DNA of 64,000 bases from Bacteroidia bacterium (GTDB lineage: Bacteria; Bacteroidota; Bacteroidia; J057). Positions 40,805 to 49,273 of the stretch are shown in pieces (within the stretch, counting starts at the first letter, position 1; each line of letters opens with the position of its first letter). The notes beneath the pieces were generated by a model, which did no database searches, was not told the DNA's origin, and saw only the letters and a program-made list of their open reading frames with translations. Both the position numbers and the translations under genes were made by a program. The stretch covers positions 4,092,001 to 4,156,000 of the forward strand of contig JAWPMV010000001.1 of assembly GCA_033391075.1 (NCBI GenBank), in the 5' to 3' direction.

Positions 40805-41569
40805 ATGAAAAAAGTCTGGATACTCTTTTTACTCTTATTGCCCCTGATGAGTCAGGCTCAGAATACAGAAGGGCAAATCTTGTTCGAAGAAAAAATGAAC
40901 ATGCACGTTGACATGGAAGTTGACGGAGAAAATGAAGAAATGATGGAGCAGCTTAAGGCTATGCTCCCGGAACATCGCATCACAAAAAGAATGTTGACCT
41001 TCACTGAAACCTCCTCTATTTACAAAAATCACAAAGGCACAGATGAGCCTATGGAACTCTCTCATGAGAGTGAAGGCATGGCTATCCACATGAAATTTGA
41101 AGAGCCGGAAAATATCCTCTTCAAAGATCTTGATGCCAATCGAAGTGTTCAACAACAGGAATTCTTCACCCGTAAATTCCTGATTAAGGATGATATCGAA
41201 AATTTTAAATGGAAATTGACTGGAGAAAGCAAAGAAGTGATGGGATACACCTGTCAGCAAGCAACTTCAGGTGAGGGGGAAGAGAAAGTCATTGCCTGGT
41301 TTGCCCCGGAAATACCTGTTTCAGGAGGCCCTGGTAAATATGGCCAGCTGCCCGGAATGATCCTCGAATTAGAGGCACAGGAAGGAAAGCTGAAAATCTA
41401 TGCAACAGCTATCACTTTTGAGAAAGTGGATAAGAAAATGATGGAAGAGCCTAAAAAAGGAAAGGTTGTTAGCCGTGATGAGTTCAAGAAGATTCAGGAA
41501 GAAAAAATGAAAGAGATGCAAATGGAAATGGGCGGTTCTGGAGGAGGAAGAATCATTATTCGAAATTAG
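40805..41569 (+). CDS. GLPGLI family protein
   Basis: 254 aa from ATG 40805, chosen because the longer frame starts at TTG within the promoter box. Signal peptide WILFLLLLPLMSQAQ. The family signature is GQLPGMILEL near residue 186, and KLTGESKEVMGYTCQQAT upstream matches the conserved region. The C-terminus is methionine-, lysine- and glycine-rich (MKEMQMEMGGSGGGR). GLPGLI proteins are exported, of unknown function, and often found with outer-membrane receptors of the type at 52514-55336, which here is 11 kb away. Confidence 0.88.
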   Translation: MKKVWILFLLLLPLMSQAQNTEGQILFEEKMNMHVDMEVDGENEEMMEQLKAMLPEHRITKRMLTFTETSSIYKNHKGTDEPMELSHESEGMAIHMKFEEPENILFKDLDANRSVQQQEFFTRKFLIKDDIENFKWKLTGESKEVMGYTCQQATSGEGEEKVIAWFAPEIPVSGGPGKYGQLPGMILELEAQEGKLKIYATAITFEKVDKKMMEEPKKGKVVSRDEFKKIQEEKMKEMQMEMGGSGGGRIIIRN

Positions 41570-41588
41570 ATTTTCATTTCGATCAAAT

Positions 41589-41623
41589 AAAAAAGCCCGC
41601 ATCTTGTGATGCGGGCTTTTTTT
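41589..41623. terminator. Strong bidirectional intrinsic terminator
   Basis: Stem GCCCGCATC (41595-41603) / GATGCGGGC (41608-41616), TTGT loop, flanked by A6 and T7. It serves both the GLPGLI gene (+) and the Oar-like receptor (-), which converge here. Confidence 0.95.
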
Positions 41624-41655
41624 ATATCTATGCTCTTAGAGAGCTTTCTTTCAAA

Positions 41656-44600
41656 TTAGAAAGAGTAACGCAGACCGATCTGGCTGTACCATCTTGCACT
41701 TCTAGTTCCAGTCTGGATCAAGCTGTAAGGCTCTCCATCCACGCCGTCAAATGCAAAGGTAGGCTGATTGGTTCCAGGCAAGAAGTCAACAAAGCGAATC
41801 AGACGGAAGTATCCATCATCTACGAAGTAAGACTTACCCCACTCTGGGTTGATCAGGTTAGCTACGTTAAAGATATCGTAAGAAATCTGTACTGTATGTC
41901 TTTTGTTTCCAACATTGAAAGAGATATCCTGAGCGATCTTCAAGTCGAAGAGGTGCTCGAAAGGAGTTCTGGAACGGTTTCTTTCAACATACTCACCACG
42001 AACAGTACTCAAGTAAGGATCAGCTTCGATATAAGCATCCAAAGCGGCCCATTGCTGAGAAGCTGTAGCAGCATCAGCAAATACAATATCGCCTTGAGAA
42101 GCAGGAACATAAATCAAAGCTCTGCTATCTTCACTATCCTCATTGGTAAAGTTGTCTCCGTTTTGGTAAACGTAAGAGAATGGCTGACCTGCTTGTCCAT
42201 TGTAGAACAAGGAGATAGTAGTTGACAGGTTTCCGTTACCATATTCGAAACGCTTGGCAAGGAAGGCACTGATTCTTGAACCGGCATCAAATGTACTTCT
42301 GGTTACAATAGGATTGTTACGTCCCATTACAGAAGTGTTATCTCTCCAGTTAGTAGAGTTGATAAATCCAGTTCCTTCAAAAAGAGACTCAGAACGAGTG
42401 AATGAGTAAGCAATGCTACCCAACCAGTTGTCAGAGAATGGTTTTTGAAGTTGTACCGTGAAGTTTCCAGTATATCCTTTGCTGGTATTATCTACCAGAG
42501 TTACTCTTGAATAGGTATCATCAACAACATCTCCACTAAAGATGGGACGCTGATCAGCACCATCAAGATTATCAGTAGAAGGAGCGAGGTTAACATTCTT
42601 CACATCCATATCGTTCAGCGCCTTCGTGAAGATTCCTTCCAATGTCAGGATAAATCCACCGGGAAGCTTTTGATCCCAGGCAACAGAAGAACGGAAGAAC
42701 TGAGGATACTTGAAGTTCTCAGCAAACAAGTCAACATCACCGGAAGGAGAAGTCAGGGTAAGACGCTCTCTCCAGGAATCAGGAGTCGCACGGAAAGGTC
42801 CGAAAGAAGCATTGAAGCTTGAGTTCAAACCATTACGGATGAACATACCGCCTGGCCATACCCAGGGCACTCTGGAGGTGAAGATACCTGCACCACCACG
42901 AACCTGAGTCTTCTGATCTCCATTAACGTCCCAGTTGAAACCGATACGAGGAGAGATCATGATAGAAGTACTAGGAGCTTTACTTGCCTGAGCACCTTTC
43001 AAATCATATCCAGCTGCTTCAAGAACGGGAATAGTTTCGCTATTGAAAGCTGCATTATCCAAAGGAGGATCATCCGTAAAAATCGGGATATCAGCGCGCA
43101 ATCCGTAAGAAAGCTTGAAGTTATCGTTGACGTCCCATTCGTCCTGTGCATAGAAAGCCAACTGCATCGCATTGAAGGTAGGCCCGAGGTTATCAGCCTC
43201 ATCACCAAATCTTACAGAAGCAGCATCGCCAGGAGTAGTTGGTTGCTCATGTCCAAAGAGAGAGAAACCAGGAGCACCACTCATGAAGAGATCCAAACCA
43301 GTCTGGATTACGTTACCATTATCATCCAAAACATTGTCATAGAAATATCTTGGAGTAGAGAAGATGGCAAAGAGGTTCTGAATTTTGAAAAATTCGTTAT
43401 GCGTTCCGAAGGTGAAGTTGTGACGACCTTTACTGATAGTCAGGTTGTCTGTAACAGTAAATACATCCTGGTTTACAATGTTTGAGTAAGAGAAATTATC
43501 TGTACCAAACAAAACCAATCCGTTTCCGTCCTGAGCCTGAACCTGAGGGAATGGATCTCCCAGAATATCACGGTCATCACGAACAGTTGTCAAACTCACA
43601 ACCAGGTTGTTGAAGACACTGCTGCTGATCGTACTTTTAAGTTCTAAAGCTGCAGAGTTGGTAGTTGAAGGGAAGAATACACCTACATTCTCGAAAGGAA
43701 GGGTAGTATTACTAGGTCTCAATACATCAGACTCAACTCCTTTTACATAAGAGTAACGAAGAGACATTTTGTTGTTCTCATTGATGTTCCAGTCCAATTT
43801 AGCCAGGAATCTATCAGTAGAACGATCCGTTGCATTGTTCAAATATCCACCAGGATTATAATTGTAGGTATTATCCAGGTAATTTACCAATTCGTCAATC
43901 TTAGCAGCATCAGCACTTCCTTGATAATCAGCAAAAGAGAAAGGCTTAGGTTCTTCATCTCTTTGAATCTCAAAGTTGGTAAAGAAGAAAAGCTTATCCT
44001 TGATTATCGGACCACCAAGTCTGAAACCGGTAGTATAAGAAGTAAAAGGATCAAGTTGTGTTCTGTTAGCGATATCATCTCCAGGTGTTTTACCTGCAAG
44101 ATTTTGATCTTTGTAGAATCCATAAACAGATCCTTCAAATTCATTGGTACCACTACGAGTTACTGCATTGATACTTGCTCCGGCGAAACCACCATATTTT
44201 ACATCAAAAGGAGCCAATACAACAGAGATCTGCTCAATTGCATCTGGCGAAATAGGACTGATACCTGCCTGTCCACCATTGGTTCCTGAGTTAGCCAAAC
44301 CAAAAACATCATTGTTAACAGCACCATCAAAGTAGATAGCATTGTATCGGTTGTTCATCCCTGCAACAGACAATCCACCACCGTTTGCATTTCCTTTCTG
44401 AGAAGGAGAAGTACGGGGATCAAGTCTTGCAAAGTCCTGAAGGAAGTTACGGTCAACCGTAGGAAGCGTATTGATTGCTTCTTTTCCTACAAAAGTCTCC
44501 GCACCTGTACGGTTACCATCGAAAAGGTCTCCGGAACCCGCTGAGATTACAACCTCTTCCAGAAGGATATCCTTGCTACTCATTCTCAGGTTTACCCGGT

Positions 44601-44913
44601 AGGTTTGACCCAAAGTAAGGTAGATCCCTTCTTGCGAAGATTGCTCATAGCCTACAAAAGTAGCAGTTACTTTGTAAGGACCACCTACACGCATGTTGGG
44701 GATACGGAAATATCCTTCATCATTGGTAAGGGTACCAAACTAAGAACCCGTAGGACCATGAATAGCAATTACAGTGGCGGCGGCTAATCCGTTGCCGTCA
44801 TCGCCAGTGACCCTTCCGTTCATTGTAGAAGTGGTCGTGCCCTGTCCCAAAGCATTGGGAACAATTCCAATGGCCAGCAAAGCCATAATCAGAATAGTAA
44901 AGGCTTTTTGCAT
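41656..44913 (-). pseudogene. Oar-like TonB-dependent receptor interrupted by one in-frame TAG
   Basis: The frame begins at ATG 44913-44911 with a signal peptide (ILIMALLAIGIVPNALGQ) and a carboxypeptidase-regulatory domain (MNGRVTGDDGNGLAAATVIAI). Codon 58 is TAG (44742-44740) inside HGPTGS*FGTLTNDEGYFRIPN. The frame then continues without error for 1027 codons, with plug motifs (KGNANGGGLSVAGMNNRYNAIYFDGAVNNDVFG) and an intact barrel ending GLRYSF. Homologues usually carry Gln at this point, so CAG-to-TAG is the simplest explanation. It may be a recent nonsense mutation, a sequencing error or a readthrough site. Downstream Met starts (44694) would lack a signal peptide. Confidence 0.85.
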
Positions 44914-44971
44914 GTTTAGTTTTTAATTAAGTTAGATAAGATTAAAAAAGAACGAATACATAAATGATAAA

Positions 44972-44998
44972 CGCGCATTTGCCAGTGGCAAATGCGCG
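44972..44998. other. Perfect 12-bp hairpin between permease and Oar-like gene
   Basis: CGCGCATTTGCC (44972-44983) pairs with GGCAAATGCGCG (44987-44998) around a 3-nt AGT loop. It is ~195 bp downstream of the permease stop and ~60 bp upstream of the receptor ATG, both on the minus strand. A T-poor tail argues against a classic terminator; it may be a leader structure or a protein-binding palindrome. Confidence 0.6.
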
Positions 44999-45191
44999 CA
45001 GTCTTTTATACTAAGTTTTGTATAGATCTTAGATTAAAATGGACCTTCCTATAAATATAAGGTCGCATTGAAGCTTTCCAATAATTTCTACTCGTGTACA
45101 TGTAACCTTTCGGTGTTTTCAGGTATCACCCTAAAAGACGCCGCAAGCTAGTCATAATTTCTAATTTTGAAAACTCCTCTTGAAGATTTAA

Positions 45192-46511
45192 TTATATCAT
45201 AACATACTGAAGTACGAAAAGCAGTACTAAAATGTATAGAATTGGATGTACGGATTTTGCATTTCCTTTAAATACATTCACCAACACATAAAACATCATC
45301 CCTATGGCGATCCCATTGGCAATGCTATAGGTAAAAGGCATGAAGATGATCAATAATAAAGCAGGAACGGATGTTTCCAAATCACTCAGATCGATCTTCT
45401 GAATACTTTCGAGCATCAGCAAACCAACCATGATCAATACCGGAGAGGTAGCTGCCGCAGGTACAATCCCGGCAACCGGTGCCAAAAATATAGCCAGCAG
45501 GAAAAATACTGCAGCACTCACCGCGGTCAATCCCGTTCGCCCTCCGGCAACAATACCCGAACCACTTTCTATATAGGTAGTAACTGTTGATGTTCCGAGC
45601 AATGATCCAATCAATGTCGCACTCGCATCTGCCAATAATGCTTTTTCCATACGAGGTAAGTTCCCATTTTCATCCAGCAAATCCCCCTTGGCTGCGGTTC
45701 CGATCAGGGTCCCAAAAGTATCGAAGAGGTCAACCAGGGTGAAACTCAGAATAACCAGGATAGCAGTGAAAATCATCCCTGCACCACTCTGCCCTTCCGG
45801 GGGGGTAAACAATCCAGCCAGATCCAGCTGAAAAGCCGTCTCTGATAAACTGATTTCCGAGAAGCTATAGGAATCCGGCAATTGGGTAACTCCCATAGGA
45901 ATACCCAACAATGTAGTACCCAATATCGCCCAAAGCATGGCAAAACGTACTTTCATAACCATAAGTGCAGTCAGGAGAACAAATCCGATGATCCCCAGTA
46001 AAACCGGAGCAGAATTCACATCTCCCAAATCCAGTACAGGTCCTTCCATATTTACGATGCCCGCATTCTTCAATCCGATCAGCGCAATAAATAGACCTAT
46101 GCCCGGAGCGATGGCAAATTTCAGATTGGCCGGAATAGCATCAATGATGCTTTTTCGTAATCCAGTAATTGTCAACAGGATAAATATCAGGCCAGAAAGA
46201 AAGACAATCGCAAGTCCTTGCTGCCAGGTGTAGCCCAATCCCATGACGACGGTGTACACAAAAAAAGCATTCAATCCCATACCTGGGGCCTGAGCAAAAG
46301 GATAGTTTGCCAATAGACCGATCAACAAACTTCCGATCGCAGAAGCAATACAGGTTGCGACCAGAACGGCCCCCGTATCCATCCCTGTTTTCCCCAGCAT
46401 TTCCGGATTGACAAAGATGATATATGACATGGTTAAAAAGGTGGTCAGACCGGCGATGATTTCTGTCCGGACGTTGCTCCCCTTTTGGGATAATTGGAAG
46501 AACTTATCCAT
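45192..46511 (-). CDS. NCS2 (AzgA-type) purine permease
   Basis: 439 aa, about 12-13 membrane helices. Family marks include the N-terminal TEIIAGLTTFLTMSYIIFVNP, the motif NYPFAQAPGMGLNAFF and the conserved LVDLFDTFGTLIGTA with TTYIESGSGIVAGGRTGLTAV. This is the AzgA/PbuG branch that imports hypoxanthine, guanine or adenine with protons. The divergent neighbouring genes encode an adenosine deaminase-like and a purine nucleoside protein, which supports purine salvage. No purine riboswitch pattern was found in the 103 bp upstream. Confidence 0.92.
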   Translation of the reverse strand: MDKFFQLSQKGSNVRTEIIAGLTTFLTMSYIIFVNPEMLGKTGMDTGAVLVATCIASAIGSLLIGLLANYPFAQAPGMGLNAFFVYTVVMGLGYTWQQGLAIVFLSGLIFILLTITGLRKSIIDAIPANLKFAIAPGIGLFIALIGLKNAGIVNMEGPVLDLGDVNSAPVLLGIIGFVLLTALMVMKVRFAMLWAILGTTLLGIPMGVTQLPDSYSFSEISLSETAFQLDLAGLFTPPEGQSGAGMIFTAILVILSFTLVDLFDTFGTLIGTAAKGDLLDENGNLPRMEKALLADASATLIGSLLGTSTVTTYIESGSGIVAGGRTGLTAVSAAVFFLLAIFLAPVAGIVPAAATSPVLIMVGLLMLESIQKIDLSDLETSVPALLLIIFMPFTYSIANGIAIGMMFYVLVNVFKGNAKSVHPILYILVLLFVLQYVMI

Positions 46512-46586
46512 GAATTTCAGCTAGTAATAATATAGTAGTTATAAAAACTTAATCTCTAAGAAGGGCATAAGTAAGTAAAAAATTCT

Positions 46587-46594
46587 TAATTTTG
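46587..46594 (+). promoter_or_regulatory. Promoter -7 box for the deaminase operon
   Basis: TAATTTTG, a perfect TAnnTTTG, lies 21 bp before the ATG at 46615. No clear -33 TTTG is seen. Confidence 0.45.
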
Positions 46595-46614
46595 GCGGAA
46601 TTTCGATTCAACCT

Positions 46615-48171
46615 ATGATAAGATATTCACTGCTCTTTCTTCTCATCATCTGCTCCAATCTCTATTCCCAAACAAATGTTGATCTCCAAGAGTATCTCCT
46701 TCAACGAGAGGCTCTGATGCAAACAGACAGTTTGGATTTTTTGAGTAGAAACACCCTTCTTTCCGTAGAAGAAAAGCTGCTCAATGAAAAAATGAAGGAA
46801 TACCAGAGGAGTATGCTTGAAGCATATAAGGCTGAGCATTTCTTTCCTCCCGCCCGCAATTTCTACCAGTCTAAAAGCCATATTGAGGCCAACCCTTTCT
46901 TTGACCTTATTCACAGGATGCCCAAAGGAGGTATTTTACATCTGCACGATCTGGCTATGACAAATGTGGAATGGATCCTTGACAAAGCCATTCACACACC
47001 TGAGATACATGTCTTTTGGGAAGAGGACAACAAAAGCTTCCTCAAAGGGAAAATGTATGCCTATAAACAGGGGCAGGCTCCGCAAGGATTTTATCCTGCA
47101 AAAGAACTGGATCAAAGAATTCCGGATTTCAAAGAAAAGTTAAAGGCTCTACTGACCTTTGACGAAAGCATTGAGGGAGATTCTGTTGATATCTGGTATG
47201 AGTTTGAAGCCATTTTCGAAAGGGTTTATGGATTCACCTATTATAAACCCGTTTTCGCTGAGTACTTTTACCAGGGACTCAAAGACCATATTGAAGACAA
47301 TATTCAACATATAGAGTTGAGAGGACGCTATGACGAACACCTCTATACCCTGGAATCCTCCACTACCCCACATGCTGAAGTCATGGCCATAATTCGGGAA
47401 GCTTATGCAAGAGCCAGAGAGTTGGATCCGGAATTTAGCATGAGCCTGATCTGGGCCAATCTTCGTTTTCTGGACAAAGAATTTATCGAAAAAGATATGT
47501 TCGCAGCGCTCGAAGCCCATAAAGAAGATCCGGATTTGATAAAAGGCTATGATCTGGTAGCGGAAGAAGACAATGGTAACCCAACCCTTTACCATGCAGC
47601 AGCATTCCTCAAACTGAAAAGGGAAATTCAGAATCAAAAGCTGGACTTCAATCTCTATCTACATGATGGAGAAAGTTCCTGGATGCATGTGAGCAATCTG
47701 TATGATGCTGTATTGCTAGGATCAAAACGTATCGGACATGGATTCAACCTTTTTCGTTTCCCACAATTGATGAAAGTGGTAAAAGAGAAAGATATTTGTA
47801 TCGAGGTGAGTCCATTGAGCAATCAAATCCTAGGATATGTTAGAGACCTGCGCATGCATCCTGCAAGTACCTATATTCGAAATGGATTGGAGGTAGTTAT
47901 CTCTTCAGATGATCCTCAACTCTTTAATTACAAAGGCTTATCCTATGATTTCTGGTCAGCTTACATGGCTTGGGAGCTGGATTTAGCTACGCTCAGGGAA
48001 TTGTGCAAAAACAGCATAGAACATGCCGCCCTTGGGCCAGAAGAAAAAGCCCATGCTATGAAAGTCTGGGAGCATCGTTGGCAAAATTTTGTCACAGATG
48101 CAATCGCAAATTGGAATATAACTTCGAATGAGACATATCTGAGGAAAAGAAAATCCTCAGAAAAGGAATAG
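46615..48171 (+). CDS. Secreted ADA2/ADGF-like adenosine deaminase
   Basis: 518 aa; signal peptide (LLFLLIICSNLYSQ). Zinc ligands His109/His111 in KGGILHLHD, a catalytic-region LHDGES (~residue 350, HAGE in classical enzymes), KRIGHGFNLFRFP, EVSPLSNQ and SSDDP (~436). The N-terminal extension and length fit the ADA2/CECR1 group rather than the ~340-residue cytosolic Add. It should hydrolyse extracytoplasmic adenosine or deoxyadenosine to inosine forms, feeding the next gene's product and the permease. Divergent from the permease by 103 bp. Confidence 0.88.
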   Translation: MIRYSLLFLLIICSNLYSQTNVDLQEYLLQREALMQTDSLDFLSRNTLLSVEEKLLNEKMKEYQRSMLEAYKAEHFFPPARNFYQSKSHIEANPFFDLIHRMPKGGILHLHDLAMTNVEWILDKAIHTPEIHVFWEEDNKSFLKGKMYAYKQGQAPQGFYPAKELDQRIPDFKEKLKALLTFDESIEGDSVDIWYEFEAIFERVYGFTYYKPVFAEYFYQGLKDHIEDNIQHIELRGRYDEHLYTLESSTTPHAEVMAIIREAYARARELDPEFSMSLIWANLRFLDKEFIEKDMFAALEAHKEDPDLIKGYDLVAEEDNGNPTLYHAAAFLKLKREIQNQKLDFNLYLHDGESSWMHVSNLYDAVLLGSKRIGHGFNLFRFPQLMKVVKEKDICIEVSPLSNQILGYVRDLRMHPASTYIRNGLEVVISSDDPQLFNYKGLSYDFWSAYMAWELDLATLRELCKNSIEHAALGPEEKAHAMKVWEHRWQNFVTDAIANWNITSNETYLRKRKSSEKE

Positions 48172-48208
48172 ATTTGTGTTCAACTTCCTATTGACCTAAA
48201 CAATACCT

Positions 48209-49273
48209 ATGAATCGCTACATCCCATTTTTCCTGGCATTTCTTTTTGCCGCTTCCTGTACCTCCCCTCAAAAAACCGAAAAACTTCCCGTCAAGCTGGT
48301 ACTCGTTTCCATGTTCGAGAAAGGCCAGGAAACAGGAGATTTGCCCGGAGAGTTTCAGTATTGGGTAGAAAGACTGCCCTTGCAGGATAGCCTTGCTTTT
48401 CCTCAGGGCTACAGACAATTGAGGTACAATCCGGACTTGCAGGTATTGGGAATTATGACCGGAGTAGGAAACATCAGAGCTGCAGCTTCTATTATGGGCT
48501 TGGGGATGGATGAAAGATTTGATCTTAGGGATGCCTACTGGTTAGTAGCAGGTATTTCCGGAGTTGATCCCGAGGATGCTCCTACTGGTTCGGCAGCCTG
48601 GGCAGAGTGGTTGGTCGATGGAGATTTGTCTCACCAGATCGATGCGCGTGAAATTCCGGAGGATTGGACAACCGGCTATTTTCCCCTAAGGAAAACAAAA
48701 CCCTACGAACAACCCAAGCAGGAAGATGATGAAGGTGCAGTAGCGAGACTCAATCCTCAAATGGTTGACTGGGCCTATCAAATGACCAAAGATATCGAGC
48801 TGGCTGACAACGAAAAGATCAAAACCATGCGCGAGCAATATACGGGCTATGCGGTTGAATCAATGAAACCTATCGTAATGAAAGGAGACCAATTAGCGGC
48901 CAGCACCTATTGGCATGGAAAGCTATTTAATGAATGGGCAAATGACTGGGTGAAGTATTGGTCGAATGGAAAGGGAAACTTTGTCACTTCTGCTATGGAG
49001 GAAATGGGGACCTATCATGCCCTGGATAGATTGGAGAAAGCCGGAAAAGTGGATAAAGAACGTTTACTCGTTCTCCGCACTGCCTCCAACTTCACCATGC
49101 AATGGCCTGGCATCACCGCTCAGGAAAGTATTGCTGGGGAAAAATTGGGCAAAGGATATACCGCTTATATTCCTTCTCTCGAAGCTGCTTACCAGGTGGG
49201 GAGTCCTGTTGTACTTGAGATTGTCAACAATTGGGATAAATACAAAGACCAGCTGCCAGGTACAGCTCAGTAA
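48209..49273 (+). CDS. NUP-family purine nucleoside protein (permease/phosphorylase-like lipoprotein)
   Basis: 354 aa; lipobox AASC (residues ~14-17). The body matches the purine nucleoside permease (NUP) family: VLGIMTGVGNIRAAASIMGLGMDERFDL, WLVAGISGVDPEDAPTGSAAWAEWLVDGDL, VLRTASNFTMQWPG. NUP was named from a yeast transporter, but its sequence resembles nucleoside phosphorylases and it lacks membrane helices here. A role as a periplasmic or outer-membrane nucleoside-processing lipoprotein is therefore more likely (inference). It lies 37 bp downstream of the deaminase. Confidence 0.85.
   Translation: MNRYIPFFLAFLFAASCTSPQKTEKLPVKLVLVSMFEKGQETGDLPGEFQYWVERLPLQDSLAFPQGYRQLRYNPDLQVLGIMTGVGNIRAAASIMGLGMDERFDLRDAYWLVAGISGVDPEDAPTGSAAWAEWLVDGDLSHQIDAREIPEDWTTGYFPLRKTKPYEQPKQEDDEGAVARLNPQMVDWAYQMTKDIELADNEKIKTMREQYTGYAVESMKPIVMKGDQLAASTYWHGKLFNEWANDWVKYWSNGKGNFVTSAMEEMGTYHALDRLEKAGKVDKERLLVLRTASNFTMQWPGITAQESIAGEKLGKGYTAYIPSLEAAYQVGSPVVLEIVNNWDKYKDQLPGTAQ

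Follow-up and report, generated by a model that had tools for sequence, protein, structure and literature searches.

A single in-frame TAG in an otherwise intact Oar-like TonB-dependent receptor gene of a Bacteroidia bacterium: probably a recent nonsense substitution

The Oar-like receptor gene and its neighborhood

The window, that is, the whole 64,000-nucleotide stretch of DNA that was analyzed, comes from a Saprospiraceae-like bacterium and carries on its minus strand a long gene that is interrupted once, at codon 58, by an in-frame TAG (Table 1). Translation gives 57 codons, the TAG, 1027 sense codons and a terminal TAA. The encoded protein has, in this order, a CarboxypepD_reg-like domain, a Plug domain and an OMP_b-brl_4 barrel (41.8, 34.9 and 188.8 bits, respectively, all above the Pfam cut-offs), and the gene is therefore an Oar-like TonB-dependent receptor gene. 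A signal peptide is predicted by inspection at approximately residues 1–23, while the remainder of the CarboxypepD_reg domain, the Plug and the barrel all lie past the TAG; consequently, signal peptide and barrel do not share one uninterrupted frame. A sequence search of the PDB returned no relative.

Table 1. Features of the receptor locus, in window coordinates.
Feature	Position	Strand	Basis or remark
Oar-like TonB-dependent receptor gene	41656..44913	-	1086 codons, including internal TAG and terminal TAA
In-frame TAG, codon 58	44740..44742	-	translation and domain match
57-codon N-terminal fragment (signal peptide, start of CarboxypepD_reg-like domain)	44743..44913	-	translation
ORF from Met74, 1012 aa, lacking the signal peptide	41656..44694	-	mechanical ORF calling
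TonB receptor Plug domain (PF07715)	44179..44442	-	profile match
OMP_b-brl_4 outer-membrane barrel (PF25183)	41848..43860	-	profile match
Xan_ur_permease (PF00860)	45192..46511	-	co-directional, just upstream of receptor; syntenic in L033–L035
Adenosine/AMP deaminase family protein	46615..48171	+	neighbor gene
Purine nucleoside permease family (NUP, PF06516)	48209..49273	+	neighbor gene
Palindromic GC-rich stem with A and T runs	41589..41623	.	sequence inspection
Near-perfect 13-bp hairpin between purine permease and receptor genes	44971..44999	-	sequence

Upstream of the receptor gene lies a divergently arranged purine cluster (45192–49273), whose linkage to the Oar-like receptor is partly conserved in relatives. 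The Xan_ur_permease gene is found directly upstream and in the same orientation in three of the closest relatives (L033–L035), in L033 and L034 a NUP gene is found at the corresponding genomic positions, and in Rhodocytophaga (L066) the receptor homolog adjoins deaminase and NUP genes. The linkage of the receptor with purine permease and nucleoside genes is thus conserved in L033–L035 and L066, and the gene neighborhood suggests that the receptor probably serves to bring purine nucleosides across the outer membrane. As no such linkage was seen in the 2.5-kb flanks of most of the other, distant homologs, this prediction of a substrate, which is open to experimental testing, applies to the present branch of Oar-like receptors only.

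Two palindromic elements flank the receptor gene. The stem downstream of it is likely a bidirectional terminator common to the receptor and the convergent gene; the receptor gene appears to be the last of its transcription unit, and so the TAG should have no polar effect. Rfam matches near 41532–41672 were sub-threshold and lay around this stem, and were discarded. The 13-bp hairpin on the upstream side, a possible terminator or attenuator, occurs once in about 2.4 Mb of the genome, and the intergenic regions of L033–L035 aligned with it lack such an element.

The reading frame, its homologs and the age of the stop

The original prediction had placed a TAG at codon 58, followed by 1027 intact codons, and both translation and a domain match over the stop bear this out. 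The CarbopepD_reg_2 match (44545–44820) runs across the codon and is reported with one TAG. Mechanical ORF calling starts at codon 74 (position 44694), the first in-frame ATG past the stop. A bypass of the TAG by frameshifting found no support, since the two other frames close soon on either side of the site.

A scan of the genome contigs and of related genomes, all of these from outside the window's own genus, recovered many full-length homologs. The four closest, from Saprospiraceae/Lewinella metagenome-assembled genomes (L033–L036), are 76–77% identical to the receptor and all intact, and the conserved position of the permease gene backs their orthology in L033–L035. The prediction had named decay of the gene in relatives as an observation that would count against it; the relatives that we looked at have intact genes. 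Of the 92 aligned homologs, none contains a stop within the first 260 residues as far as these are matched, and in 30 homologs the frame was followed downstream of the codon-58 site and is uninterrupted. Because all 92 homologs run free of stops through the matched N-terminal region, a chance junction of two open reading frames is excluded for the gene at 41656–44913. The homologous frame is hence broken by a stop that its relatives do not have, as is the case in a nonsense pseudogene or null allele.

Homologs had been expected typically to carry Gln at this place, which holds only in part: Gln is the commonest residue over the 92 homologs, but with 23 occurrences it is in the minority (Val 20, Lys 12, Thr 11, Arg 9, Met 5, and others), and the closest four have Met, Met, Met and Val. 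These orthologs do not settle which codon was ancestral in the window lineage.

Aside from the TAG, the gene bears the marks of a sequence under selection until recently. The intact orthologs L033 and L035 differ by a dN of approximately 0.03 and a dS of approximately 1.1 (dN/dS of approximately 0.03), indicating strong constraint. Relative-rate tests, in which the window lineage was set against four intact orthologs with four outgroups, detected no excess of changes in the window lineage (50 vs 76 and 45 vs 77, among others), ruling out an old decay of the gene. Moreover, the receptor violates 5 of 216 conserved columns, in the middle of the range of intact homologs, and neither a second stop nor a frameshift was found in it. 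Assuming neutrality since the stop arose, its age is bounded at about 0.03 substitutions per site when nonsense changes alone are counted, and at about 0.01 if indels make up 5–10% of changes, a share that is assumed. With no second lesion and a normal rate, the stop is at most strain-level in age, or an error.

Decoding of TAG and the background of internal stops

TAG is an ordinary terminator in the window's genome. In a sample of about 2.4 Mb (2.46 Mb fetched, with small overlaps), 994 long ORFs end in TAA (575), TAG (230, 23%) or TGA (189). Release factor RF1 is encoded (487 bits). A search for a suppressor tRNA-CUA had been proposed; the Rfam model found 49 tRNAs, all of which were typed through their loci, and no CUA anticodon that would read UAG is among them. 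The sole match to the PylS profile scored 24.1 bits against a cut-off of 178.15 and is probably a generic class II synthetase. Outside the window, in the same genome, dense arrays of seven and six tRNA genes (L170:9617-10463 and L171:9670-10357) lie about 36 kb apart; some of these genes have odd sizes and low model scores, their isoacceptors duplicate those found elsewhere, and together they resemble the kind of tRNA array that a phage or mobile element carries.

When stops with coding-like sequence on both sides were sought in a dicodon scan, the codon-58 TAG ranked high. At the sites that scored better, a start codon lies only a few codons away from the stop, which is the pattern of gene junctions, and the other sites that were read through turned out to be gene junctions, antisense-like frames and a small decayed PIN-like gene. 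Besides the codon-58 TAG, no clean stop in the middle of a gene was found in the approximately 2.4 Mb sampled, and among the genome's 91 CarbopepD_reg_2 and 61 ABC_tran matches no other has an internal stop. The PIN-domain-like case (L218:15248, plus strand) consists of a TAG in a short frame that soon ends again further downstream, and looks like a decayed small gene. In addition, two Plug domains were matched within short frames of 137 and 481 codons (G000:C1:4577494-4577766 and G000:C3:109097-109297), and these receptors are possibly broken as well.

Origin and consequences of the stop

Based on these results, the TAG is probably real, a nonsense substitution that arose very recently in a single-copy gene for an Oar-like receptor. 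Translation would then stop after 57 residues, within the CarboxypepD_reg-like domain, and the only in-frame restart would be at Met74 or later, yielding a protein that lacks the signal peptide, such that no receptor would be expected in the outer membrane. The allele would be present in the organism and not just in the assembly, and no functional receptor would be made. Such losses can be tolerated, or even selected for, where the culture lacks the substrate or where the receptor is exploited by a phage or bacteriocin.

A base-call or assembly error, which would leave the organism with a sense codon at this place and a normal, intact gene, is an unlikely explanation, albeit one of some weight. 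Everything else in the receptor gene looks functional, and an error would just as well leave the gene without further decay; likewise, a sporadic error would look just like this lone clean stop in about 2.4 Mb and among the domain matches surveyed. On the other hand, the very rarity of clean single stops indicates an assembly of good quality (five contigs, 99% complete), and an error of this kind requires a substitution that happens to create a stop, as approximately 3% of random substitutions in the receptor gene do. Rarity by itself is compatible with a mutation and an error alike. The original prediction had listed a very recent change, an error, a phase-variable or regulated stop and a readthrough site as options; the former two fit all of the data, while readthrough, recoding and phase variation are disfavored. 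It is improbable that the stop is read through at a useful frequency, by near-cognate decoding or as a regulated stop, to give some full-length receptor. The frame past the TAG is indeed intact and constrained, and in Escherichia coli readthrough of some premature stops can be measured (PMC11126739). The RNA 3' of the TAG folds slightly better than its shuffles (z of -1.66, with 15 of 200 shuffles as good), which is a weak point in favor and falls short of a strong downstream structure, so that a recoding hairpin was rejected. Against readthrough also stand the lack of a stop in the matched region of all homologs, the presence of RF1 without a suppressor tRNA, and the three bases after the TAG, TTT (UUU in the RNA), as the same reporter study in E. 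coli found readthrough to be favored by downstream sequence high in G and low in T, and lowered by a change to T (PMC11126739). That low-level readthrough keeps a dose-limited receptor, shielding the cell from phage or bacteriocin and permitting some uptake, is very improbable.

Outer-membrane receptors frequently vary in phase in other Bacteroidota, which speaks for the TAG being one state of a reversible switch operated by recombination or slippage. Nevertheless, the change is a point substitution, the site shows no evident repeat, and even the most similar paralogs of the same genome reach only about 31–32% identity, which makes a gene-conversion donor unlikely; neither slippage nor gene conversion is thus a likely switch, and we give phase variation hardly any credence. 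Reassignment or dual meaning of TAG, either pyrrolysine-like or as Gln or Tyr, has nothing in its favor apart from the single codon, while stop usage, RF1, the tRNA inventory and the low PylS score all speak against it; it was rejected, its probability being practically negligible.

The strain is unsuited for inferring the function of the receptor, and automated annotation would either place the start of the gene at Met74 or call it a pseudogene.

Comparison with known systems

The gene at 41656–44913 shares its domain order with Oar-like TonB-dependent receptors and aligns over the full length with many Bacteroidota homologs, but has a premature stop. The Oar protein of Myxococcus exports the PopC protease (PMC11658791), whereas the neighbors of the present gene point to purine nucleosides instead. 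Programmed stop-codon readthrough in bacteria likewise has a lone in-frame stop that is flanked by coding sequence; here, in contrast, the stop occurs in no homolog, no decoding factor was found and the 3' context is unfavorable. No account of TonB receptor pseudogenes in Bacteroidetes came up in a literature search. Single-nonsense pseudogenes and null alleles of bacterial isolates similarly have one stop, no further decay and normal constraint until recently, and no difference from them was found in the receptor gene. Altogether, the gene is best read as a very recent single-nonsense null allele with ordinary loss of function, or else as the product of a base-call error, and not as a case of special decoding.
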